Positions 3,213-13,433 of a stretch of 13,433 bases of DNA are shown here, piece by piece; the first letter of the stretch is position 1; each line of letters starts with the position of its first letter. The notes beneath the pieces were generated by a model. The model had not been told where the DNA came from, searched no databases, and worked only from the letters and a program-made list of their open reading frames with translations. Location of the stretch: NCBI GenBank assembly GCA_016210495.1, contig JACQUC010000235.1, positions 1 through 13,433 of the forward strand, read 5' to 3'. The DNA is from Chloroflexota bacterium. Lineage in GTDB: Bacteria; Chloroflexota; FW602-bin22; JACPRP01. Position numbers and translations under genes: made by a program.

Positions 3213-3271
3213 TGTAGTGCAGGGGCTTGTCCCCTGCTGGGGAGGAGCGGGGGACAAGCCCCCGCACTACA
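3213..3271. repeat. inverted pair of GTAG-headed hairpins (BIME/REP-like)
   Basis: Two 22-base arms (3213-3234 and 3250-3271) are reverse complements with one mismatch, around a 15-base loop. Each arm also folds alone: GCAGGGG/CCCCTGC around CTTGT (3219-3237), and GCGGGGG/CCCCCGC around ACAAG (3247-3265). The outer ends read TGTAG on the plus strand and CTACA at the far side, so each hairpin is headed by GTAG on its own strand. This is the head-to-head arrangement of bacterial interspersed mosaic elements. There is no T-run, so it is not a classical terminator, but the stem could stabilise the murA mRNA end or block readthrough. Confidence 0.8.
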
Positions 3272-3316
3272 TACTTCCTACCCAAAGCTCTCCATCCCTC
3301 ATACGGTTATCTGGCA

Positions 3317-3324
3317 AAGGGGAG
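3317..3324 (+). promoter_or_regulatory. ribosome binding site that fixes the mreB start
   Basis: AAGGGGAG lies five bases before the ATG at 3330. The open frame reaches back to 3171, but that extension reads through the palindromic repeat and has no family similarity. This site and the family N-terminus agree on 3330. Confidence 0.75.
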
Positions 3325-3329
3325 TTTAC

Positions 3330-4340
3330 ATGTTTGCCAAACAGATCGGCATTGACTTGGGCACGGCTAACGTGCTGGTTTACGTCAGAAGGAAAGGCAT
3401 TGTGCTCAACGAGCCATCTGTCGTGGCGATATCTAACGCCGACAACAGGCTGATGGCTGTTGGGAACGACGCCAGGGCGATGCTGGGGCGAACTCCGGGC
3501 AGCATCACGGTGATTCGTCCTATGCGTGATGGCGTCATCGCTGACTACGTCATCACGGAAGCGATGTTACGATACTTCATTACAAAGGTGTGTGGGCGAT
3601 TCCGGCTTTTCAAGCCGGAAGTGATGGTGTGCATTCCAGCCGGCGTCACGAGTGTGGAGCAGCGCGCGGTTCACGACGCCACGATCCAGGCGGGGGCAAG
3701 GACGGCCTATCTCATAGAAGAGCCCCTTGCCGCAGCAATCGGGGCAAAGATACCGATTCATCTGCCCAGCGGGCACGTGGTGGTCGACGTCGGCGGTGGT
3801 ACGACAGAGGCCGCCGTAGTCTCGCTCAACGGCATTGTGGTCAAGAATTCGGTCCGCGTGGCTGGGAGCAAGCTGGACGATGCGATAGCGGCGTATATCA
3901 AGAAGAAGTATAATTTGATGATCGGCGATGGCACGGCTGAGACGATTAAGATGGAGATAGGCAGCGCCCTGCCGCTGGAGCAGGAGTTGTCCATGGAGGT
4001 TAGGGGAAGGGATCAGGTGGGCGGTTTGCCGAAGACCATTACGATTCGTTCGCAGGAGATCAGAGAGGCCATTGCGGATCCCCTGGCAGCCATTGTGGCG
4101 GCCGTCAGAACCGTGCTTGAGCAGACGCCACCAGAACTGGCTTCCGACGTGATCGACAAAGGGATGGTGTTGACGGGCGGTGGGGCTTTACTCAGAAACC
4201 TGGATCGGTTATTGGCGCAGGAAACGGGTGTCCCCTGCTACGTGGCAGATGACCCCATGGCGTGTGTGGCCGTCGGCGCAGGGCTGGCACTGGAACGCAT
4301 CGACGTTTTGCGCAAGAACTTGCCCGTGACGGAGAGTTAG
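3330..4340 (+). CDS. mreB: rod-shape determining actin homologue, MreB/Mbl type
   Basis: Bacterial actin that forms membrane-bound filaments guiding lateral cell-wall synthesis. From the ATG at 3330 it is 336 residues, the usual length. Actin-fold ATPase motifs are all present: phosphate 1 [11 protein letters not shown] (9-19), EEP (130-132), phosphate 2 [10 protein letters not shown] (151-160), and adenosine motif LTGGGALL (281-288). Other family blocks are [34 protein letters not shown] and [11 protein letters not shown]. The start [14 protein letters not shown] resembles Bacillus Mbl more than the canonical MreB, and the position downstream of murA also matches mbl. No mreC or mreD follows. 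It therefore implies at least partly rod-like or filamentous growth. The stop is eight bases before purQ, so this wall gene and the purine genes may share a transcript. Confidence 0.95.
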
Positions 4341-4348
4341 CACCCACT

Positions 4349-5071
4349 TTGAAATTTGCCGTTATCGTCTTTCCCGGCACCAATAACGAGGCCGATTGCT
4401 TCCACGTCGTCAGGGACGTGCTACACCAGCCGGTACGCTACGTTTGGCACAAAGAGACCGATCTATCGGACTTCGACTGTTTGATCCTCCCCGGCGGCTT
4501 CTCTTATGGCGACTACCTGCGGGCCGGCGCGATCGCTCGCTTTTCCCCTGTTATGAAAGCGGTCGAGCGCTTTGCCGGCACCGGCGGACTGGTGATCGGT
4601 ATCTGCAACGGCTTTCAGATTCTAACGGAATCAGGTCTTTTGCCGGGTGCTCTCACCCGAAACGATTCGCTCCAATTTCGCTGTCAGTGGGTCCAGATCA
4701 GGGTCGAGAGCAGCGACCTTCCCCACCTGTCCCTGTGCAGCCGGGGGCAGGTTCTGCGCATGCCCATCGCCCATGGGGCCGGTAGCTACTACGCCGACAG
4801 TGCTACTTTACAGCGCTTGAAGGCGAATGATCAGATCGTCGTCCGCTATTGCGTGGGCGATGGCACCGTGACCAGGCAGTCCAACCCAAACGGATCCGTG
4901 GAGAACATCGCCGGCATCTGCAACAAGGATAGAAATGTCTTTGGCCTCATGCCGCACCCCGACCGCTGCGCCGAAGCCGTACTGGGCGGGGTGGATGGAT
5001 TATTGATATTTGAGTCGATTCTTACCTCCTGGCGGCCCCCAGGGCCGCCGGAAACCCAAACACAATTGTAG
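4349..5071 (+). CDS. purQ: phosphoribosylformylglycinamidine synthase, glutaminase subunit
   Basis: Class I glutamine amidotransferase that releases ammonia for PurL in step 4 of purine synthesis (FGAR to FGAM). With the TTG start the protein is 240 residues and begins [12 protein letters not shown] as expected; GGAGAG at 4331-4336 is a distant ribosome site. An upstream ATG at 4262 would add 29 residues overlapping mreB without family similarity and is rejected. Motifs: [20 protein letters not shown], the nucleophile elbow GICNGFQ with Cys86, and MPHPDR with His203. The third triad residue is normally Glu (HPE) but here is Asp205. The last dozen residues ([12 protein letters not shown]) are encoded by a palindrome at 5031-5049 and the stop TAG by the GTAG of the next repeat, so the tail looks repeat-derived. 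Confidence 0.95.
5031..5049. repeat. perfect hairpin inside the purQ 3' end
   Basis: GGCGGCCC (5031-5038) and GGGCCGCC (5042-5049) pair perfectly around CCA. It encodes part of the proline-rich tail of PurQ that has no counterpart in the family as I remember it. There is no T-run and no GTAG head; it stands next to two GTAG-headed palindromes and may belong to the same inserted block. Confidence 0.7.
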
Positions 5072-5106
5072 CCGCAGGCTTGAGCCTGCGCGTAGCCGTC
5101 TGACGG
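5068..5106. repeat. two consecutive GTAG-headed palindromes, purQ-purL spacer
   Basis: The first reads GTAGC, then CGCAGGCT (5073-5080) and AGCCTGCG (5083-5090) around TG. The second is GTAG at 5092-5095 followed by CCGTC, T, GACGG (5096-5106). The GTAG at 5068-5071 supplies the purQ stop codon TAG. They occupy about half of the purQ-purL spacer; no promoter is evident. Just downstream is the ten-base palindrome ACGATATCGT (5116-5125), of unknown meaning. Confidence 0.7.
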
Positions 5107-5149
5107 TTGTACGAAACGATATCGTCTACCGAGCTGCCGGGAGAGTATT

Positions 5150-7360
5150 TTGGTTGATGCACGGACTCTAGCCGAAGTGGCGCTGACGAGAGAAGAATAT
5201 GATCTGATCGTCCAAAAGCTGGGCCGCGAGCCCACGCCGGTGGAGCTTGGCATGTTCGGGGCGATGTGGAGCGAGCACTGCGGCTACAAGAACTCCAAGC
5301 TGCTGTTGGGGCTTTTTCCTACTCAATCAGAGCGCGTGCTGCAAGGGCCAGGGGAGAACGCGGGCGCGGTGGACATCGGCGATGGACTCGCAGTGGTCAT
5401 GAAGATTGAAAGTCACAACCATCCCAGCGCCATCGAACCCTACCAGGGGGCCGCTACAGGCGTTGGCGGAATAGTGAGAGATATCTTCACGATGGGTGCA
5501 AGACCTATCGCTCTGTTGGACTCACTGCGCTTCGGGCCGCTGAATCAACCGCGCAATCGTTATCTTACAGCCGGCGTCGTGGCCGGCATCGGCGACTACG
5601 GCAACTGCATCGGCGTGCCGACGGTGGGCGGAGAGGCCTTTTTTGCGGAGTCGTATTCCGGCAATCCGCTGGTCAACGCCATGTGCGTCGGAACGATCGA
5701 GGCCAGCAAGCTGATCACGGCCAAGGCCACGGGAGCAGGCAACCCCCTGGTGCTTGTTGGCGCCGATACCGGCAGAGATGGCATCCACGGTGCCACGTTT
5801 GCCTCGGTGGAGCTGAACGAGAAATCGGAGGAGCGGCGTCCCGCTGTGCAGGTCGGCAACCCGTTTCTTGAGAAGCTGCTTATCGAAGCGTGCCTCGAGC
5901 TGCTGGACACCGACTACATCGTAGGCATGCAGGACCTGGGAGCGGCCGGCATCACCAGCTCCATTGTGGAGAGCGCCAGCAAAGGCGACGCGGGGGTCGA
6001 CGTGGACGTGGCGAAGGTATCACGGCGCGAAGAGGGCATGACACCCTATGAGGTTGTGCTATCCGAATCGCAGGAACGAATGCTGGTCGTGGTGAAGAAG
6101 GGTTGCGAGGACAGGGTCAAGGCTATTTTCGACCGCTGGGAGCTGCACTCGGACGTGATCGGCGTGGTGACCGATGACGGACTGGTGCGCGTCAGAGAGG
6201 GCGGCTCAATCGTCGCGGAGATACCGGCCAAGATTCTTACCGAACCACCGCTCTATCGTCGCGAAGCGGTCAGACCCCAGTATTTGGAGAGTGCGTGGGG
6301 CTTCGATCCGGAGCAGTTGCCCGAACCGGCCAACGTGGGTGATGTTCTGTTGAGATTGCTCGGCTCGCTGAATATAGCATCGAAGGAATGGGTATACCGG
6401 CAGTATGATCATACGGTGCAAACGAATACCTTACTGGCGCCGGGCGAGGGAGACGCGGCGGTTTTGCGCGTGAAGGGGACAAACAAAGCCATTGCACTGG
6501 CGACGGACTGTAACGCGCGCGTCTGCTACCTGGATCCGTACCAGGGCGGGGCCATTGCCGTGAGCGAGGCCGCCCGAAACGTCGTGTGCGTAGGAGCCGA
6601 GCCGCTGGCGCTGACCAACTGTCTGAACTTCGGCAATCCGGAAAAGCCTGACATATTCTATCAGCTCGATCAAGCGGTCAGGGGCATGGCCGATGCGTGC
6701 AGGCAGTTGGGAACGCCAGTCATCAGTGGCAACGTGAGCCTGTACAACGAGACCAACGGGGAAGCCGTATACCCCACCCCGGTTATCGGAATGCTCGGGT
6801 TGATAGAGGATGTCGAGTCTCGCTGCTCGATGGGCTTCAAGAGCGAAGGAGACGTCGTGGCGCTCTTAGGCAACGCGACTGGCGCCGGTCTCGGCGGCTC
6901 GGAGTACTTGCAGGTCGTGCACGGCCGGGTCACGGGGAGACCCCCAGGGATCGATCTGGAATTCGAGAAACGGCTGCAGTCGTGCTGCCTGGCAGCCATA
7001 CGGTCGGGTCTGCTTGAGTCGGCGCACGATTGCAGCCTGGGTGGTCTGGCTGTGGCCCTGGCGATTTGCTGCATTGCCGGCGGCATCGGGGCGAGAACAG
7101 ATCAATCTTCATTTGGCCAGCGCGGCAGCGATTTCCTTTTCGGCGAGGGCCAGTCACGCATTGTCGTATCTCTCAAGAGAGAGAGGATCGCGAAGTTTGA
7201 AGAGTTCGCGCGCGAGTTCGGCGTGCCTCTTCATTTGCTGGGCGTCGTCGAAGGTGACAGGCTGGTGATCGGCGAGTCTATAGACCTGCCGGTCGACGAG
7301 ATGGCGGGCGTCTGGAAAGGATCGCTAAGTGAATCTTTTGACAAGCGTCACTCGCCGTGA
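5150..7360 (+). CDS. purL: phosphoribosylformylglycinamidine synthase, synthetase subunit (small type)
   Basis: ATP-dependent enzyme that uses ammonia from PurQ to turn FGAR into FGAM. At 736 residues it is the small PurL type, which works as a complex with separate PurQ and PurS, unlike the roughly 1300-residue fused enzyme of enterics. Motifs: MWSEHCGYKNSK (39-50), GPGENAGAVDIGDG, the ATP/Mg and catalytic segment KIESHNHPSAIEPYQGAATG (85-104) with His89, and in the second half YDHTVQTN, LDPYQGGAIAVSEAARN, GNVSLYNETNG and the AIRS-like HDCSLGGLAVA. TTG is used as start, with GGAGAG (5140-5145) four bases upstream. No purS occurs in the window. The last codons contain the likely purF promoter. 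Confidence 0.96.
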   Translation: MVDARTLAEVALTREEYDLIVQKLGREPTPVELGMFGAMWSEHCGYKNSKLLLGLFPTQSERVLQGPGENAGAVDIGDGLAVVMKIESHNHPSAIEPYQGAATGVGGIVRDIFTMGARPIALLDSLRFGPLNQPRNRYLTAGVVAGIGDYGNCIGVPTVGGEAFFAESYSGNPLVNAMCVGTIEASKLITAKATGAGNPLVLVGADTGRDGIHGATFASVELNEKSEERRPAVQVGNPFLEKLLIEACLELLDTDYIVGMQDLGAAGITSSIVESASKGDAGVDVDVAKVSRREEGMTPYEVVLSESQERMLVVVKKGCEDRVKAIFDRWELHSDVIGVVTDDGLVRVREGGSIVAEIPAKILTEPPLYRREAVRPQYLESAWGFDPEQLPEPANVGDVLLRLLGSLNIASKEWVYRQYDHTVQTNTLLAPGEGDAAVLRVKGTNKAIALATDCNARVCYLDPYQGGAIAVSEAARNVVCVGAEPLALTNCLNFGNPEKPDIFYQLDQAVRGMADACRQLGTPVISGNVSLYNETNGEAVYPTPVIGMLGLIEDVESRCSMGFKSEGDVVALLGNATGAGLGGSEYLQVVHGRVTGRPPGIDLEFEKRLQSCCLAAIRSGLLESAHDCSLGGLAVALAICCIAGGIGARTDQSSFGQRGSDFLFGEGQSRIVVSLKRERIAKFEEFAREFGVPLHLLGVVEGDRLVIGESIDLPVDEMAGVWKGSLSESFDKRHSP

Positions 7361-7366
7361 TACTAT
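7338..7366 (+). promoter_or_regulatory. probable sigma-70-type promoter for purF operon
   Basis: TTGACA (7338-7343) is a perfect -35 box, followed by a 17-base spacer and TACTAT (7361-7366) as -10 box, with TG one base before it (7358-7359), an extended -10. It overlaps the purL 3' end. Transcription would begin near 7373 and leave a leader of about 235 bases before purF containing two GTAG hairpins. Spacing and boxes are seen directly; activity is inferred. Confidence 0.55.
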
Positions 7367-7401
7367 TTTTGTAGCTAGGTTCTGGTGCAAAACACAAAAG
7401 C

Positions 7402-7427
7402 GTAGGGGCGGACGTCTCTGTCCGCCC
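7402..7427. repeat. GTAG-headed palindrome, first copy before purF
   Basis: GTAGG followed by arms GGGCGGAC (7406-7413) and GTCCGCCC (7420-7427) around GTCTCT. No T-run follows. It would lie in the untranslated leader if the promoter at 7338-7366 is used. Confidence 0.8.
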
Positions 7428-7499
7428 AGGGGTGGGGCGGGGGCGTCGCAGCCATCGCGCACCCAAAACTAGCCAGTTTCTGGCGAACAAAGCCAAAGC

Positions 7500-7522
7500 G
7501 TAGGGGCGAGGCAACCTCGCCC
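7500..7522. repeat. GTAG-headed palindrome, second copy before purF
   Basis: GTAG (7500-7503) followed by arms GGGCGAGG (7504-7511) and CCTCGCCC (7515-7522) around CAA. Same head and lower stem (GGGCG/CGCCC) as the copy 98 bases upstream, but different upper stem and loop, with pairing kept. Confidence 0.8.
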
Positions 7523-7610
7523 TGGGGCGGGGAGCGGCCGCATCGACCTGGTTTAGCGTCTAAGAGTAGGCTGTGGTGGATTGGGCAGGTGCCTCGAAGC
7601 GGAATATGAA

Positions 7611-9008
7611 GTGACCGACGACCTCAAAGAAGCGTGCGGGATATTCGGCATATACGGCCCGGGTGAGGATGTGGCCAGGATCACGTTCTTTGGGCTGTAC
7701 GCTCTTCAGCATCGCGGGCAGGAGAGCGCTGGCATCGCGACTGGTGACGGCGCTCGAATCCGGGTGTTCACGCGCATGGGGCTCGTGTCTCAGGTCTTTG
7801 GCGAAGACGACCTCTCCCGATTGTCCGGGCACATTGCCATCGGCCACACCCGTTATTCGACCACGGGAAGCTCACGTGTGGCAAACGCGCAGCCGATAGT
7901 GGTCGAGGGCCCGCGTGGGCAGTTGGCGCTGGGGCACAACGGAAATCTGGTCAACATTCAACACCTGCGGGACGAGATGTCCGCCGAGGGCCATTGCTTC
8001 GACACGACGACCGACAGCGAGATTATTGGCCGGCACCTGGCGAGCGTTCCTGCGCGAGATTGGACTGAGGCAATCCAGGTTACCATGCCCAGACTCCAGG
8101 GTGCGTACAGCCTGGTCCTCGCGTCGAAAGACAAGCTGTTCGGTGTACGCGATCCTCTTGGGCTGCGCCCCTTATGCATAGGTCGTCTGAATGGCGCGTG
8201 GGTATTGGCTTCGGAGTCGTGCGCGCTCTACACGGTGGGTGCGGATTTTATCAGGGAAGTCGATCCCGGTGAGATTGTGGTGATCGACTCGAACGGATTG
8301 CAGAGCCTGTCGGGGCTTAGGAGCACCCGTCGCGCGCTCTGTATCTTTGAATTCATCTACTTCGCGCGGCCGGACAGCGTCATTAACGGCAAGTTGGTTC
8401 ACTTAGCTAGGCAGGAGATGGGGCGACAACTGGCGCGGCAGCAGCCGGTCGACTCCGACATCGTCATTGCGGTTCCGGATTCGGCGGTACCGGCCGCCAT
8501 TGGTTACTCGCAAGAGTCGGGTATCCCCCTGAGCGAGGGGTTGATAAAGAACCGCTACATCGGGCGCACGTTCATTCAGCCGGACCAGCGCATCCGAGAG
8601 ATAGGCATAAGCCTCAAGTTTAATCCTTTGCCCGAGGTGCTGAAGGGCAAGCGAGTGGTCGTCGTCGACGACTCGATCGTGCGCGGGACCACCACGAAGC
8701 CGATAGTTAGACTGCTGCGGAAAGCCGGCGCCAGGGAGGTACACGTACGAATACACGCGCCTCCGATGCGCTACCCTTGCTACCTTGGAGTTGATACGGC
8801 ACGAAGCGACGAGCTCATCGCCGCGCGGCTCTCGGTCCCGGAGATAGCCCGTTACATAGAGGCCGATACGCTGGCATATCTGGAGCTAGATCGCCTGGTG
8901 AAGAGCGTGAGCGCGAAGGCTGATGACTTCTGTCTGGCCTGTTTCAACAGCGATTATCCTGTGCCGGTGCAACTCGAGCTAGACAAATTCGTCCTGGAGC
9001 GGCAGTAG
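7611..9008 (+). CDS. purF: amidophosphoribosyltransferase
   Basis: First committed and usually feedback-controlled enzyme of purine synthesis: PRPP plus glutamine gives phosphoribosylamine. From GTG 7611 it has 465 residues. The Ntn glutaminase half begins TDDLKEACGIFGIY; Cys9 would be the nucleophile exposed by propeptide removal, and LQHRGQESAGIA, GHTRYSTTG and HNGNLVN follow. The phosphoribosyltransferase half carries the PRPP loop VVVDDSIVRGTT (350-361). Cys244, Cys390, Cys441 and Cys444 match the four [4Fe-4S] ligands of the oxygen-labile Bacillus enzyme, so this is the iron-sulfur type. The frame is open to a TTG at 7581, which would add ten residues; neither start has a strong ribosome site, and I chose GTG because the short propeptide matches the family. 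purN follows after seven bases. Confidence 0.93.
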   Translation: MTDDLKEACGIFGIYGPGEDVARITFFGLYALQHRGQESAGIATGDGARIRVFTRMGLVSQVFGEDDLSRLSGHIAIGHTRYSTTGSSRVANAQPIVVEGPRGQLALGHNGNLVNIQHLRDEMSAEGHCFDTTTDSEIIGRHLASVPARDWTEAIQVTMPRLQGAYSLVLASKDKLFGVRDPLGLRPLCIGRLNGAWVLASESCALYTVGADFIREVDPGEIVVIDSNGLQSLSGLRSTRRALCIFEFIYFARPDSVINGKLVHLARQEMGRQLARQQPVDSDIVIAVPDSAVPAAIGYSQESGIPLSEGLIKNRYIGRTFIQPDQRIREIGISLKFNPLPEVLKGKRVVVVDDSIVRGTTTKPIVRLLRKAGAREVHVRIHAPPMRYPCYLGVDTARSDELIAARLSVPEIARYIEADTLAYLELDRLVKSVSAKADDFCLACFNSDYPVPVQLELDKFVLERQ

Positions 9009-9015
9009 GAAGTAT

Positions 9016-9672
9016 ATGATCAGGCTAGGTGTTATGGCCTCCGGCAGAGGCAGCAATCTTCAGGCCATCATCGACACTATCGAGCGGGGAGAGTTGGCCG
9101 CCGAGATCGCCATCGTCGTGAGCAACCGCACCGAGGCCCAGGCGCTGGCGCGAGCCGGGCGGCACGGCGTGGCCAAGGCCGTCTTCGAGCGTAAGGGCTT
9201 CGCATCGCGCCTGGAGCGAGACCTGGCCATGGCGGAGTGCTTGAAACGGCACGCGGTCGACCTGGTGGTTATGGCCGGCTACGACCAGGTGGTGGCTGAT
9301 GAGTTGCTGCAAGCGTTCGCCGGCCGTGTGATCAATATCCACCCATCGCTGCTGCCTGCGTTTGCCGGCGGCCTTCACGCGCAGGCGGATGCCTTTGCGC
9401 ATGGCGTGAAGGTGTCCGGGTGCACCGTTCACTTCGTGACGCCCGGCGCCGTCGACGGAGGACCGATAATCCTTCAAAAAGCGGTGCCTGTGTTGGAAAG
9501 CGATGACGCCGAGACCCTCGCCGAGCGCATTCTCAGGGAGGAGCATCATCTCTTGCCCGAAGGAATCAGGCTGTTTGTCGAGGGAAGACTGGCCATAGAG
9601 GGCAGAAAAGTGCGGATCAGAAGGCCTGATCGATTGGAGGGTTCGGGTGCCCACGAAGACCCCCGGCGATGA
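9016..9672 (+). CDS. purN: phosphoribosylglycinamide formyltransferase, folate-dependent
   Basis: Transfers a formyl group from 10-formyltetrahydrofolate to GAR in step 3 of purine synthesis. The 218 residues show the start IRLGVMASGRGSNLQAII with the phosphate-binding GSN (12-14), INIHPSLLP with Asn107 and His109, and the Asp loop AVDGGPIILQ with Asp147, completing the Asn-His-Asp catalytic set. AGGAAG six bases upstream overlaps the purF stop region and supports the ATG. The C-terminal tail after RLAIEGRKVRI is short and basic, and the last 26 bases overlap the next gene, indicating translational coupling. purM, which often lies between purF and purN, is missing here. Confidence 0.95.
   Translation: MIRLGVMASGRGSNLQAIIDTIERGELAAEIAIVVSNRTEAQALARAGRHGVAKAVFERKGFASRLERDLAMAECLKRHAVDLVVMAGYDQVVADELLQAFAGRVINIHPSLLPAFAGGLHAQADAFAHGVKVSGCTVHFVTPGAVDGGPIILQKAVPVLESDDAETLAERILREEHHLLPEGIRLFVEGRLAIEGRKVRIRRPDRLEGSGAHEDPRR
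9636..9641 (+). promoter_or_regulatory. ribosome binding site inside purN that fixes the GTPase start
   Basis: GGAGGG lies five bases before the GTG at 9647, inside the purN reading frame. It is among the strongest ribosome sites in the window and makes the 26-base overlap with purN credible. Confidence 0.75.
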
Positions 9673-10213
9673 CGAGATCAATTGCAAGGTCGTTTATTAC
9701 GGTGCGGCGGCGAGTGGCAAGACGAGCAACTTGACTCGCCTGCACGTCGAAGCTCCTGCTGAAGCCAAGGGCGAATTGCTGGCGCTGGCGGCAGAGCCGG
9801 GGTTCTTCGACTTCTTGCCGCTGGATCTCGGCGTCGTTCGTGGCCGTAAGGTCAGGTTTCACATATACAGCAGTCCGAGTCAAACGGCTCACTTGTCTAC
9901 GCGAGAGATGCTCCTTTCAGGCGTTGATGGAATCGTCTTTGTCGTCGATTCCCAGCGGAACAGGTTTCGTGAGAACGTGACGAGCTTCGAGGAGATGGAA
10001 CATATCTTGCGGGCGCTTGGCAGGCCGACAAGCGATGTGCCGCTTGTGCTACAATACAATAAACGTGATCTGCCTGATGCGATGCCCGTGTCCATTCTGA
10101 ATGCTCGCCTGAACAGTCTGACGCTTCCGTCCTTTCCCGCGGTAGCCACCAAGGGGTTAGGTGTGATGAGCACGTTGCGGTCGATTGGCGAGTTGGTTCT
10201 GGCGAAGTTGTAA
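9647..10213 (+). CDS. MglA-like small Ras-family GTPase with degenerate switch regions
   Basis: A 188-residue protein that aligns end to end, from memory, with the bacterial polarity GTPase MglA: KVVYYGAAASGKTSNL (14-29, P-loop GAAASGKT), KGELLALAAE, FFDFLPLDLG, GVDGIVFVVDSQ, VLQYNKRDLPDA (G4 NKRD 138-141) and AVATKGLGV (G5). Two switch features are lost. Where MglA has about three more residues, including the Arg and Thr of switch I before FFDF, this protein has only AAEPGFFDF (48-56). Where MglA has VPGQ, it has SPSQ (76-79), so the switch II glycine is Ser though Gln is kept. Nucleotide binding looks possible; hydrolysis and switching look impaired. It begins with GTG after a strong ribosome site within purN, and lies 26 bases before purH. 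No MglB/roadblock partner is in the window. Role unknown. Confidence 0.85.
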   Translation: MPTKTPGDDEINCKVVYYGAAASGKTSNLTRLHVEAPAEAKGELLALAAEPGFFDFLPLDLGVVRGRKVRFHIYSSPSQTAHLSTREMLLSGVDGIVFVVDSQRNRFRENVTSFEEMEHILRALGRPTSDVPLVLQYNKRDLPDAMPVSILNARLNSLTLPSFPAVATKGLGVMSTLRSIGELVLAKL

Positions 10214-10239
10214 TAAGGCAGACGTTGAATGAGGTCGTT

Positions 10240-11790
10240 ATGAGAGCCATTTTGAGCGTGTCGGACAAGGGTGGTCTGGTCGAGTTCGCGCGTGGTCTCC
10301 ATCAGCTCGGCGTCGAGATTTTCTCAACTGGCGGGACGAAGCACGCGCTCATCGAGGCAGGTGTGAGCGCACGTAGCGTGTCCGATCTTACCGGGTTTCC
10401 CGAGATACTGGATGGCCGGGTCAAGACCCTGCACCCTATGATTCACGGGGGAATTCTGGCGCGTCGAGAGCTTCCACAACACGTTGCTCAGTTGAAGCAG
10501 CACGGCATCGGTGCTATTGACATCGTCGTCGTCAATCTTTATCCTTTTGCCAAGACCGTCGCCAAACCGGAAGCCACTCTCGAGGAGGCCCTTGAAAACA
10601 TCGATATTGGAGGCCCGACGCTGATTCGTGCTGCGGCGAAGAACTACACCAACGTGGTCGTCGTGGTCGATCCGAAGGACTATGAAGACGTTTTGGATGA
10701 ACTGGGCTCCACCGGGGACGTTTCTCAGGGAAAGCGGCGGGTGCTTGCTGCGAAGGCTTTTCAACACACGGCGATCTATGATACGCACGTGGCTACGTAT
10801 TTGAGGCCACCTATCCTGACTCTGCCGGAGAGCATGACGGTTGCTCTCGAGAAGGTACAGGGCCTGCGCTATGGAGAGAACCCGCACCAGGACGCGGCGC
10901 TCTACGCCGATAGCACCATCGCGATCCGATCTGGCACTATCGTGGGGGCACGACAACTGTCCGGCAAGGAACTGTCGTTCAACAATATACTTGACCTGGA
11001 TGCCGCGTTCAACTGCGCGCGCGATTTCGGGTCTGTCGCGGTGGCCATTGTGAAGCACGGCAACCCTTGCGGGCTTGCCTGTGGCGAGGAACTGGCGGAA
11101 ACCTACCAGCGAGCGCACGAGGGCGATCCTGTCTCGGCGTTTGGTGGCGTGATCGGGCTCAACCGCGTGGTGGATGTGGCGACGGCGGAGCTGATCTATC
11201 AAAACTTCTACGAAGACATCATCGCTCCCGGGTACGCCGCGGAGGCACTGGAGATTCTGAGAAGGAAGAAGGATCTCCGGGTACTGCAAGCCGAATTTGT
11301 GGGCCGGGAGCCTGCGGGCGCATGGCCGGCGAGCCAACTGGACCTCAAGCGGATTAGCGGAGGGTATCTGATCCAGACCCCTGACGTAGTGGCTGAGGAT
11401 GCGCTGTCGCTGAAGGTGGTTAGCGAGCGCGAGCCAACGCTGGAGGAGCTGACCGACCTGGTGTTTGCGTGGCGTGCAGTCAAGCACGTGAAGTCTAACG
11501 GCATCGTGCTGTCCAAAAGGCTTTCGCTGGTTGGCGTGGGAGCCGGACAGATGAGTCGCGTGGATAGCGTCGAGATTGCCGTGCGCAAGGCTGGGCACAG
11601 GGCCGTCGGCTGCGTACTGGCTTCGGATGCCTTCTTCCCGAAGGCCGACGGTGTGGAGGCGGCCGCGTCCGCGGGCGTATCGGCGATCATCCAGCCGGGC
11701 GGATCCATCCGCGATGATGAAGTTACAAGGACGATCAACAAGCATCATTTGGCGATGATCTTCACCGGTCAGCGCCATTTCAAGCACTAA
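10240..11790 (+). CDS. purH: bifunctional AICAR transformylase / IMP cyclohydrolase
   Basis: Catalyses the last two steps to IMP: formylation of AICAR by 10-formyltetrahydrofolate, then ring closure. The 516 residues comprise an MGS-like cyclohydrolase domain (about 1-140) with SVSDKGGLVEFARGL, FSTGGT, GRVKTLHP (59-66) and NIDIGGPTLIRAAAKN, and the transformylase domain with RYGENPHQ (210-217), LSFNNILDLDAA, the catalytic KHGNPCG (272-278), SAFGGVIGLN, KSNGIV and the closing RHFKH. The ATG at 10240 has GAGG five bases upstream and matches the family start; the frame is open to a TTG at 10225. It probably belongs to the purF-purN-GTPase transcript. Confidence 0.97.
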   Translation: MRAILSVSDKGGLVEFARGLHQLGVEIFSTGGTKHALIEAGVSARSVSDLTGFPEILDGRVKTLHPMIHGGILARRELPQHVAQLKQHGIGAIDIVVVNLYPFAKTVAKPEATLEEALENIDIGGPTLIRAAAKNYTNVVVVVDPKDYEDVLDELGSTGDVSQGKRRVLAAKAFQHTAIYDTHVATYLRPPILTLPESMTVALEKVQGLRYGENPHQDAALYADSTIAIRSGTIVGARQLSGKELSFNNILDLDAAFNCARDFGSVAVAIVKHGNPCGLACGEELAETYQRAHEGDPVSAFGGVIGLNRVVDVATAELIYQNFYEDIIAPGYAAEALEILRRKKDLRVLQAEFVGREPAGAWPASQLDLKRISGGYLIQTPDVVAEDALSLKVVSEREPTLEELTDLVFAWRAVKHVKSNGIVLSKRLSLVGVGAGQMSRVDSVEIAVRKAGHRAVGCVLASDAFFPKADGVEAAASAGVSAIIQPGGSIRDDEVTRTINKHHLAMIFTGQRHFKH

Positions 11791-11822
11791 TATGCAACTG
11801 GTGGGAGGGGGAGTGCGGCTGT

Positions 11823-12146
11823 ATGCCCATCTACGAGTATGAATGCCTGGCCTGCGGCGTTCATTTCGAGCGCAGGCAATCTGTGAAAGACGAACCTATC
11901 AGGTCCTGCCCGGAGTGCCCTGGCCAGGCGCGAAAGGTTATTCTTCCGGTGGGAATCATCTTTAAGGGGTCTGGGTTTTACGTTACCGACAACCGGGGGA
12001 AGAACGCCGCGGCGACCTCAGCCCAGCCAGCCGCTGGCGACAACGGGGCCAAATCGGATACCTCCGCGAAATCCGAGAAGTCCGAAACGAAGTCGGGTGC
12101 CAAGGCCGGCACGGACGCTAAGCCCGCGGCCGAGACTGGTACCTGA
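11823..12146 (+). CDS. FmdB-family zinc ribbon protein
   Basis: A 107-residue protein starting [12 protein letters not shown], the signature of the FmdB/CxxC_CxxC_SSSS family. Four cysteines, Cys8-Cys11 and Cys29-Cys32 (SCPEC), form one zinc ribbon, followed by the usual [14 protein letters not shown] (45-58). From residue 60 the protein is low-complexity Ala, Ser, Lys, Thr, Glu and Gly, presumably disordered. FmdB was named as a regulator of formamidase in methylotrophs, but most members have no established function and I do not assign one. A GGGAGGGGGAG ribosome site (11803-11813) precedes the ATG by nine bases. Separated from purH by 32 bases, it may be in the same transcript. Its stop lies inside a hairpin shared with dtd. 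Confidence 0.85.
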
Positions 12147-12160
12147 TGTACCATCAGGTA
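12140..12160 (+). promoter_or_regulatory. perfect hairpin spanning the fmdB stop and the dtd ribosome site
   Basis: TACCTGATG (12140-12148) and CATCAGGTA (12152-12160) are exact reverse complements around TAC. The left arm contains the TGA stop of the zinc ribbon gene (12144-12146), the right arm contains AGG (12156-12158), the only plausible Shine-Dalgarno for the dtd ATG at 12169. It could hide that site until a ribosome ending the upstream gene opens it, or be a protein-binding dyad. It lacks GTAG and is not of the repeat family. Confidence 0.6.
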
Positions 12161-12168
12161 ACTGGCTG

Positions 12169-12606
12169 ATGCGTGCGATTATCCAGCGGGTCACCGAGGC
12201 CTCGGTTAGCGTCGGAGGACGTGTCGTCGGCGAGATCGGCCAAGGCCTCGTCGTCCTCGTCGGGGTCAAGCAGGCAGATACCGAGGCCGATGCCAAGCGA
12301 TTGGCCGAGAAGAGCGCTCTGCTAAGGATTTTTGCCGACGAGGCCAGCAAGTTCAACTTATCGGCCGTGGACGTATCTGCCGAGATATTGGTCGTGTCTC
12401 AGTTCACAGTGTACGCGGATACGCGCAAGGGCCGGCGCCCGAGCTTTGTCGATGCTGCGGCGCCCGATGTGGCCGAGCCCTTGATAGAACGATACGCGGA
12501 GTTCCTCCGCAACTTCGGTCTCAAGGTGGCGACAGGATGGTTTGGCGCTCACATGCTTGTCAAGATACTTAACGATGGCCCCGTGACCGTTATTCTCGAC
12601 ACGTGA
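12169..12606 (+). CDS. dtd: D-aminoacyl-tRNA deacylase
   Basis: Proofreading enzyme that removes D-amino acids (and glycine mischarged on tRNA-Ala) from tRNA. The 145 residues show the family start [29 protein letters not shown], the signature [17 protein letters not shown] (77-93), FGAHMLVKI and the Gly-cisPro motif NDGPVT (135-140) placed in the partner's active site. The open frame extends upstream to 12097, but that part overlaps the zinc ribbon gene and lacks similarity; the ATG at 12169 gives the exact family N-terminus. The last codons are repeated almost exactly 76 bases downstream, where the copy continues in frame for seven more codons, suggesting the present C-terminus was remade by a repeat insertion. 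Confidence 0.95.
12581..12602 (+). repeat. dtd 3' end, first copy of a 22-base direct repeat
   Basis: Encodes the VTVILDT ending of dtd. It is 20/22 identical to 12657-12678; the two differences turn a GTT codon into ATC. The copies flank a 54-base block holding a GTAG-headed palindrome. Confidence 0.75.
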
Positions 12607-12620
12607 GAAGTTGGCCGCTG

Positions 12621-12650
12621 GTAGGGGCGTCCGCCTCAGGCGGACGCCCA
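12621..12650. repeat. GTAG-headed palindrome between dtd and the CBS gene
   Basis: GTAG (12621-12624), then arms GGGCGTCCGCC (12625-12635) and GGCGGACGCCC (12639-12649) around TCA: an eleven-base-pair perfect stem. No T-run follows, only CACCCCCG. It lies between the two copies of the dtd 3' end. Confidence 0.85.
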
Positions 12651-12656
12651 CCCCCG

Positions 12657-12700
12657 CCGTGACCATCATTCTCGACACCACAGATGTTTACCGGAAATGA
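12657..12700 (+). pseudogene. displaced duplicate of the dtd 3' end
   Basis: 12657-12678 repeats 12581-12602 with two changes and reads VTIILDT in the same phase relative to the motif. It continues as TDVYRK and stops at TGA 12698-12700, just before the ribosome site of the CBS gene. This looks like the original dtd terminus, cut off from the gene by the palindrome block. Only about 14 codons are recognisable, so the interpretation is inferred. Confidence 0.5.
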
Positions 12701-12702
12701 AG

Positions 12703-12709
12703 AAGGAGG
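12703..12709 (+). promoter_or_regulatory. ribosome binding site of the CBS gene
   Basis: AAGGAGG, nine bases before the ATG at 12719, is a near-perfect Shine-Dalgarno and fixes the start. Confidence 0.75.
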
Positions 12710-12718
12710 CCTGATCAA

Positions 12719-13354
12719 ATGTACGTGCGCGATTACATGACCACCAGCGTGATCACCTGCTCGCCTGAAACACTCGTGGTGGACGCACAGAAATTGATGG
12801 ATGAGCACAAGATCCGTCGGCTGCCGGTAATGGATGGTGAAAAGCTAGTTGGTATAGTCACCAAAACAAAGCTGCGGGATGTCGCTCCTTCCCCAGCCAC
12901 CTCCTTGAGCATTTGGGAACTGAACTATCTGCTGGCGAAAATGAAGGTCAAAGAAGTGATGGAGAAGCGCGTGGTCACGTGCGCCCTGGACACGACCATC
13001 GAAGACTCGGCACTTATCGCCAAGCAGCATGGCGTCGGCGCTTTGCCCGTGGTTGAGAACGGTAGGCTGATGGGCATCATCACGGTGACGGATGTATTGA
13101 ACATCCTCATAGAGGTGTTGGGGCTGCAGAAGCGCAGCGTGCGACTTCACATTGTGAAGTCGTTCGTCGCCCGGCCGTTGGGAGAGATCACCAGCGTGAT
13201 CAACGAGCACAGGGTCGAGATCTACAGTATGTTCTCACTTACGGTGCCGAGAACTAAGCGCAAGGACTTGATAGTACGCCTAAACACAGAAGATGCCGGC
13301 CCAATCGTCGAGGATCTACGGTCGCGGGGTTACACCGTCGAAGTGAGCAAGTAG
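12719..13354 (+). CDS. tandem CBS domain plus ACT-like domain protein (AcuB-like)
   Basis: A soluble 211-residue protein with two CBS motifs forming one Bateman module: residues about 1-57 (YMTTSVITCSPETLVVDA ... RRLPVMDGEKLVGIVT) and about 75-133 (KVKEVMEKRVVTCALDTTIE ... GALPVVENGRLMGIITVTDV). Residues about 140-211 look like an ACT fold (RPLGEITSVINEHRVEIYS ... RLNTEDAGPIVEDLRSRGY). Such proteins bind adenine nucleotides, and the layout resembles AcuB of Bacillus, whose exact role is unclear; a regulatory sensor role is inferred, the partner is unknown. The linker between the CBS motifs (55-74) is hydrophobic and may be a helix. The stop codon TAG belongs to the GTAG head of the next palindrome. 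Confidence 0.85.
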   Translation: MYVRDYMTTSVITCSPETLVVDAQKLMDEHKIRRLPVMDGEKLVGIVTKTKLRDVAPSPATSLSIWELNYLLAKMKVKEVMEKRVVTCALDTTIEDSALIAKQHGVGALPVVENGRLMGIITVTDVLNILIEVLGLQKRSVRLHIVKSFVARPLGEITSVINEHRVEIYSMFSLTVPRTKRKDLIVRLNTEDAGPIVEDLRSRGYTVEVSK

Positions 13355-13375
13355 GGGCGCGATTAATCGCGCCCC
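13351..13375. repeat. GTAG-headed perfect palindrome at the end of the CBS gene
   Basis: GTAG at 13351-13354, with GGGGCGCGATT (13354-13364) followed directly by its reverse complement AATCGCGCCCC (13365-13375): 22 bases with no mismatch. TAG at 13352-13354 is the CBS gene stop. The remaining bases to the window end hold the small palindrome ATGCGCAT (13376-13383) and no gene. Confidence 0.85.
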
Positions 13376-13425
13376 ATGCGCATTATGCTAAGCAGTCGTT
13401 AGGTCGGCAGACGTACGGTCTTAAT

Positions 13426-13433
13426 GTAGGGGC
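13426..13433. repeat. start of another GTAGGGGC element, cut by the window edge
   Basis: The last eight bases are GTAGGGGC, the same head as at 7402, 7500, 12621 and 13351. Whether a palindrome follows cannot be seen. Confidence 0.5.

Follow-up and report, generated by a model that had tools for sequence, protein, structure and literature searches.

Repetitive extragenic palindromes (REPs) headed by GTAG have been described together with their cognate REP-associated tyrosine transposases (RAYTs, or TnpA-REP), with inverted doublets, with several families per genome and with members in Chloroflexi (PMC3733652, PMC2817692, PMC3116915). We analyzed a contig of 13,433 bases from a Chloroflexota bacterium (JACQUC010000235.1; hereafter the window, meaning the whole stretch), along which GC-rich hairpins with GTAG at their foot recur, and interpret these hairpins as REP elements of RAYT systems in a Dehalococcoidia-like Chloroflexota genome, belonging to several RAYT-specific families, a reading to which the sequence comparisons below lead us to assign a probability of about 0.93. 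An earlier reading of the window, made from its sequence only (the sequence-only reading), had already proposed REP elements of the RAYT type and had considered such a system in a Chloroflexota-like genome to be worth describing; the phylum itself is not new, GTAG REPs having been reported for Chloroflexi in 2013 (Di Nocera 2013, PMC3733652).

With the GTAG REPs and REPtrons, as these are described (PMC3733652; Nunvar 2010, PMC2817692), the elements studied here share the GTAG head, the GC-rich stem and the inverted doublets, as well as several families per genome, repeat-specific and co-evolving RAYTs, TAG stop codons and occurrence in Chloroflexi; they differ in lineage, here Dehalococcoidia-like metagenome-assembled genomes (MAGs), in their stem words, and in the G-rich tail of one family, S1, represented in the window by the hairpin at 7402. 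The G-C stem foot after GTAG is like that of the canonical long and "double foot" REPs of TnpA-REP subclass 2.4 (PMC6006769), as are the two-headed palindromes of two relatives (G007 and G001; G and L numbers are our handles for genomes and loci) and the REPs inside the RAYT frame at L129, L133, L136 and L140. This likeness is one of described traits only, and the hairpins of the window, unlike those of subclass 2.4, are all one-headed, none of eight having the form GTAG...CTAC. Two-headed REPs were considered as a new type and rejected, since they equal the published double-foot REPs (PMC6006769). The REP hairpins within the RAYT frame at the four loci lie downstream of the HUH motif, and the frame is intact. 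As in the group 2/3 TnpA-REP/REP duos (PMC8266576), there are perfect-palindrome REPs with GTAG at the foot, resembling those of S. maltophilia (group 3); those duos were tested in vitro, whereas the proteins considered here are known from their genes. Our reading would extend RAYT-tied REPs to uncultured Dehalococcoidia-like bacteria.

All six complete loci and the cut copy that had been listed for the window exist. Counting each GTAG that has a perfect stem of at least 7 pairs starting no more than 4 nt after it, we found eight heads, compared with a mean of 0.24 and a maximum of 2 in 100 dinucleotide shuffles; among all 4-mers GTAG has the top rate of hairpin starts (8/71), the next highest count being 4, and GTAGGGGC is matched five times against 0.44 expected, a number that none of 200 shuffles reached. 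In keeping with the definition of REPs and REPINs, GTAG stands directly at the foot of a GC-rich palindrome of 20-40 nt, and an inverted doublet with its heads outward is present at 3214-3270. Two details of the earlier description stand in part. The lower stem had been described as GGGGCG and as tending to be kept; a GGGC foot follows GTAG directly at 7402, 7500, 12621 and 13351, and the remaining two of the six loci, 3214 and 5068, have other feet. The locus given as 5068-5106 consists of a hairpin at 5068-5090, its end taking in a second, candidate GTAG hairpin at 5092-5106, with 5 pairs and a 1-nt loop.

The placement of the hairpins is much as the sequence-only reading had it. Of the eight heads, seven are intergenic or at the end of a gene, and the eighth hairpin (10052-10028, minus strand), which lies within a coding gene, is probably a chance occurrence. 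Hairpins occupy all four internal gaps longer than 75 nt (167, 78, 220-250 depending on the purF start, and 112 nt, lengths that depend on the gene starts chosen), and no GTAG hairpin was found at the other eight gene junctions of the window. The contig, for which the protein database records a length of 13433, appears to stop there, inside a further GTAGGGGC (13426), as would be expected if the assembly broke at a repeat. GC-rich hairpins located downstream of genes might also be intrinsic transcription terminators of operons, an explanation that we consider highly improbable, as no T run follows any of the hairpins, a terminator scan of the window returned 4 sites against 8.4 in shuffles with 0 at GTAG hairpins, and terminators are not expected to share GTAG, to make inverted doublets or to flank RAYT genes on both sides.

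For whole-genome counts and RAYT searches we used the genomes of relatives, ranked by PurL over the best 80 of 564 matching stretches; the closest genome in this ranking is a Dehalococcoidia MAG, G001 (69% identity), followed by UBA6077, G002. Enrichment of GTAG at hairpin feet, which the sequence-only reading had called for, stands out in samples of two relatives: 35 GTAG hairpins in 210 kb of G001, where six control heads have 1-3 and GGTA has 8, and 83 in 286 kb of G007, where seven control heads have 3-12, while TAGG, which overlaps GTAG, gave 21 and 60 in the respective samples. The full G007 sample holds 138 GTAG hairpins in 686 kb, at a density that varies by piece (83 in 286 kb for 20 contig-start pieces, 55 in 400 kb for 20 pieces mostly inside long contigs). 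In counts of GTAGGGGC, 5 of 14 relatives show an excess over the reversed control, most strongly G007 (903 vs 283) and G001 (393 vs 168). A perfect stem is begun by 15 of 30 GTAGGGGC words in G001 and by 88 of 184 in G007, the words having been chosen without regard to pairing; of the five rearranged words used as controls in each genome, none begins more than one such stem. In G007, 24 different 5-mers follow the foot of the stem-starting words, which indicates that the upper stem varies while staying paired. The relatives' hairpins also avoid genes: 41 of 113 elements (11/28 in G001, 30/85 in G007) lie inside open reading frame (ORF) proxies, a greedy set of long ORFs covering about 80% of the DNA, compared with 47 of 67 control hairpins. 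Many dispersed and mostly extragenic copies, as expected of REPs, are thus seen in two relatives. Two-headed GTAG...CTAC palindromes account for 52 of the 140 elements sampled from G007 and 6 of the 38 from G001.

Three of the six window stems (7402, 3214 and 13351) recur as dispersed repeats in relatives, in a search of six patterns against 60 genomes. The 7402 stem, S1, is present in six of these genomes (161 copies in G021, 46 in G001, 10 in G039, 5 in G022, 2 in G023 and 1 in G067) and in none of the other 54, its reversed control has no copies in the 60 genomes, and among the copies listed for G001 and for G039 there is the window's exact stem-loop, GGCGGACGTCTCTGTCCGCC; the two richest genomes, G001 and G021, are those whose RAYT genes S1 flanks. 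Copies of the 3214 stem, GCRGGGGCTTGTCCCCYGC, number 25 in G039, 17 in G001, 3 in G021 and 1 in G043, and the 13351 stem occurs in seven places in G007 and in one in G021. The first 20 listed pur loci of relatives were compared for synteny, all except L002 being judged too diverged for an empty-site test; at L002 the purL-purF gap of UBA6077 (12263-12453) holds four GTAG hairpins, whose stems are unlike those of the window.

Candidate partners of these repeats are encoded by the relatives. The Y1 family PF01797 is present in 11 of 14 relatives, and NF047646, the NCBI model for the REP-associated tyrosine transposase, has matches above its cut-off in 7 of the 13 genomes scanned; among 41 relatives of G001, 7 exceed the cut-off and 16 have a match at E 0.001. 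Stretches matching NF047646 number 14 in G001 and 21 in G007, some genes being split in two. We tabulated 71 RAYT-like genes from 22 genomes, excluding more IS200-like matches except L115 as well as lower matches without a fetched neighborhood. HxH is invariant in the 57 of these proteins that were aligned (120-260 aa), and the tyrosine of the YI.NP motif, which we take to be the catalytic one, is found in 50 of the 57. The S1-flanked protein of G001, L220, can be aligned to an E. coli TnpA-REP of known structure, 4er8 (E 5e-5). Fifteen rows of the table come from G007 and carry many different flanking stems; with about 15 RAYT-like genes and many stems, this genome would constitute a natural enzyme-substrate set for the reading of hairpins by an HUH nuclease.

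The stems of the window can be found beside these genes. S1 hairpins lie next to RAYT genes at L213, L220, L144, L204, L232 and L245, with the same stem on both sides at L220, L232 and L245; the RAYT genes L212 and L206 have beside them a stem that fits the 3214 pattern, stems near-identical to 13351 flank the RAYT-like genes L261 and L270, and GGGCGAGGCTTGCCTCGCCC, related to the 7500 stem, stands on both sides of a RAYT gene in G005 (L273). NF047646 matches all ten flanked proteins scanned. RAYTs with the 7402 or the 3214 stem in their flanks score above its cut-off, except L144 (67.6 bits), and L261 and L270 score below it. Among RAYT genes with 400 bp available on both sides (n = 59), 24 have GTAG hairpins on both sides, compared with 24 of 498 control ORFs, taken from G001 and G007 only. 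When hairpins are present on both sides, the two stems are usually identical (similarity at least 0.9 for 22 of 28 RAYT genes), compared with 3.7% of different-gene pairs, or 18% of 72 such pairs within one genome. In the relatives, RAYT genes are thus flanked by inverted copies of their own REP, as expected of a RAYT system.

Strongly IS200-like Y1 genes also occur in the relatives, and IS200/IS605 ends are likewise hairpins, so that the elements could in principle be ends or remnants of IS200/IS605 or miniature inverted-repeat transposable elements moved by another transposase; at one of these Y1 genes, L137, there is even an S1 hairpin in one of the two flanks. We give this explanation very little credence. 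The matching hairpin pairs flank genes that match NF047646, and none of the eight Y1 hits with E <1e-24 (L111-L117 and L122, of which L111, L112 and L116 are near contig ends) has a matching pair of GTAG hairpins. There is also no general target duplication, with 0 of 39 elements in G001 (control 0/188) and 5 of 160 in G007 (control 2/790), of which one is a second REP and three are in one cluster; one of seven elements in the window shows a duplication (control 0/161).

RAYT proteins and their stems diverge together in the relatives. Among 42 genes having a tight hairpin, protein similarity correlates with stem similarity over all pairs (r 0.42), between genomes (0.37) and within them (0.59), values reached in 0 of 2000 permutations each, with shared descent of close pairs contributing to the correlation. 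The changing stems had been read as free variation, and free drift of the stem within one REP family, with a RAYT that reads head and foot only, would account for the head and GGGC foot common to many stems and for stems separated by few paired changes. This appears improbable given that the stems are discrete repeated words, many of them tied to a RAYT, and that stem similarity tracks RAYT similarity. The matching RAYT flanks and the RAYT-stem correlation instead suggest that the window's stems belong to several families, each with its own RAYT, and the changing stems are probably due to the coexistence of RAYT-specific REP families.

Several observations weigh against our reading of the hairpins as REPs of RAYT systems. 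The RAYT genes and the dispersed stem copies are known from the genomes of relatives only, and some RAYT frames are interrupted by a stop (L204, L206). The stems at 5068 and 12621 are found in none of the 60 relatives, and the exact 7500 stem occurs in two places of a single genome, G056. Only 4 of the 10 flanked proteins that were scanned exceed the cut-off of NF047646, and under loose settings one or both flanks hold a GTAG hairpin in 41 of 59 RAYT genes and also in 185 of 498 control ORFs. Furthermore, the NF047646 search gave no RAYT match in 25 of the 41 relatives of G001, and GTAGGGGC is below its reversed control in 9 of 14 relatives, from which it follows that the RAYT/REP system is patchy among relatives.

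In the mechanism that we favor, by analogy with published biochemistry on other REPs, the RAYT, a Y1 HUH nuclease, would bind its own REP in single-stranded form, at the GTAG head and the hairpin, cut beside the REP and help to copy it elsewhere; RAYT is reported to recognize GTAG plus hairpin in single strands and, guided by GTAG, to cleave at CT (or CA) (PMC8266576). One genome may hold, or have held, several RAYT paralogues with a separate REP stem for each, the families sharing the head and often the GGGC foot and differing in the upper stem in a paired fashion, and, judging from their positions, copies would survive mostly where they are harmless, between genes or at gene ends. The window probably contains debris from several such REP/RAYT systems (Table 1).

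Table 1. Predicted REP elements and associated repeats of the window.
Feature	Position	Strand	Remarks
REP hairpin, first half of inverted REP doublet (REPIN)	3214..3237	+	GTAGT + GCAGGGGCTTGTCCCCTGC
REP hairpin, second half of inverted doublet, GTAG outward	3247..3270	-	
REP hairpin GTAGC + CGCAGGCTTGAGCCTGCG	5068..5090	+	TAG is the purQ stop; assigned by form alone
First leader copy of 98-bp tandem pair, continuing into 7402 REP	7372..7410	+	
REP hairpin, S1 family (GGCGGAC..GTCCGCC)	7402..7427	+	Dispersed copies, RAYT flanks in relatives
G-rich tail of S1 REP, AGGGGTGGGGCGGGGGCG	7428..7445	+	Verbatim after S1 hairpin in G001 (L137)
Second leader copy, continuing into 7500 REP	7470..7508	+	79% identity over 39 nt
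REP hairpin GGGCGAGG-CAA-CCTCGCCC	7500..7522	+	Related stem flanks RAYT in G005
G-rich tail of 7500 REP, TGGGGCGGGG	7523..7532	+	
REP hairpin GGGCGTCCGCC-TCA-GGCGGACGCCC	12621..12649	+	Assigned by form alone
REP hairpin GGGGCGCGATTAATCGCGCCCC	13351..13375	+	TAG is the stop of the CBS-domain gene
Truncated REP GTAGGGGC	13426..13433	+	Contig end

The S1 family is distinguished by what follows its hairpin. At least two G runs lie within 22 nt 3' of the hairpin, on the same strand, in 41 of 42 copies in G021 and 25 of 33 in G001, these being the copies in fetched stretches, among which the two members of a doublet are not independent; upstream of the hairpin there are none (0/42 and 0/32, respectively), and other REP families have such a tail in 4 of 21, 0 of 10, 6 of 40 and 5 of 92 copies. 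The base preceding GTAG is C in 60 of 62 S1 copies. Those S1 copies that stand just 5' of RAYT frames carry the tail in G021 and lack it in G001 (L142, L143, L145 and L260), the latter counting against the tail as a constant part of the element. A canonical four-run G-quadruplex was considered and set aside, being found in only 3 of 42 copies in G021 and 2 of 33 in G001, and we therefore keep to the more cautious term "G-rich tail"; REP oligonucleotides have themselves been reported to form tetraplexes (PMC7709200). In a literature search confined to open-licence papers we found no published G-rich REP tail. Among the S1 loci fetched from G021, 18 of 20 are inverted doublets, the loci having mostly been picked as close pairs, so that this is not a rate. 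The G021 doublets at L296-L315 fall into two size classes, of 63-89 nt (7) and 166-270 nt (11), and several of the compact doublets have G-rich tails that are complementary to each other.

The hairpins at 7402 and 7500 belong to a tandem pair of 98 bp, the full stretch aligning at a score of 59 against a shuffle maximum of 32. The 39 nt of the leader take in 9 nt of the REP head and foot; the part before the head is identical at 22 of 30 positions (score 28, compared with a maximum of 24 in 1000 shuffles). Either a stem replacement or two insertions may have produced the pair. We tentatively raise the idea, which we hold to be doubtful, that the S1 REP is a unit of C, GTAG, hairpin and a conserved same-strand G-rich tail (AGGGGNGGGG...) in which the upper stem acts as an exchangeable cassette; the tandem pair would illustrate such a swap, since leader, head, foot and tail align and the inner stems are from different families. 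If this were true, a REP could pass from one RAYT to another by a single stem swap, which would explain the far-reaching diversification of paired stems. The G-rich tail and the tandem pair with like leaders and different stems may be new details and, if confirmed, bear on the origin of new REP families.

Two of the eight window GTAGs supply the stop codon of a gene (5068 and 13351), and GTAG REPs are reported to commonly provide TAG stops of their neighbors (PMC3733652). The CBS-domain protein ends at residue 211, as do its eight closest relatives (71-80% identical), which places the 13351 REP exactly at an old stop. An extension of PurQ up to the 5068 REP was also considered; PurQ has 240 aa compared with 229 in its closest relative, and the spread of lengths among many listed others (229-242 or more) leaves the claim unsupported. 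In the G007 sample TAG is the stop of a 100-codon open frame for 26 of 138 hairpin GTAGs, compared with 528 of 4975 without a hairpin (19% vs 11%, binomial p 0.003), and in G001 for 0 of 35 compared with 84 of 1387, a peak at the stop offset being partly built in, as each GTAG contains TAG. The stop-codon effect in the relatives' samples is weak.

The contig is a gene cluster with every gene on the plus strand. Its genes were called from ORFs and Pfam matches, with names inferred from the families (PurQ was named also by a protein database match), and run in the order atpD, atpC, murA, mreB, purQ, purL, purF, purN, Arf-like GTPase, purH, zinc-ribbon, dtd and CBS-domain. An Rfam scan of the window gave four matches, all under the gathering scores and to frameshift and miRNA families that are implausible here. 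At the 3' end of purQ an extra palindrome, GGCGGCCCCCAGGGCCGCC, lies at 5031-5049 without GTAG. Copies of the dtd end at 12581-12617 and 12657-12693 (78% over 37 nt; alignment score 42 compared with a shuffle maximum of 23) enclose the 12621 REP. The gene for the Arf-like small GTPase (PF00025; 9647-10213) overlaps purN and precedes purH.

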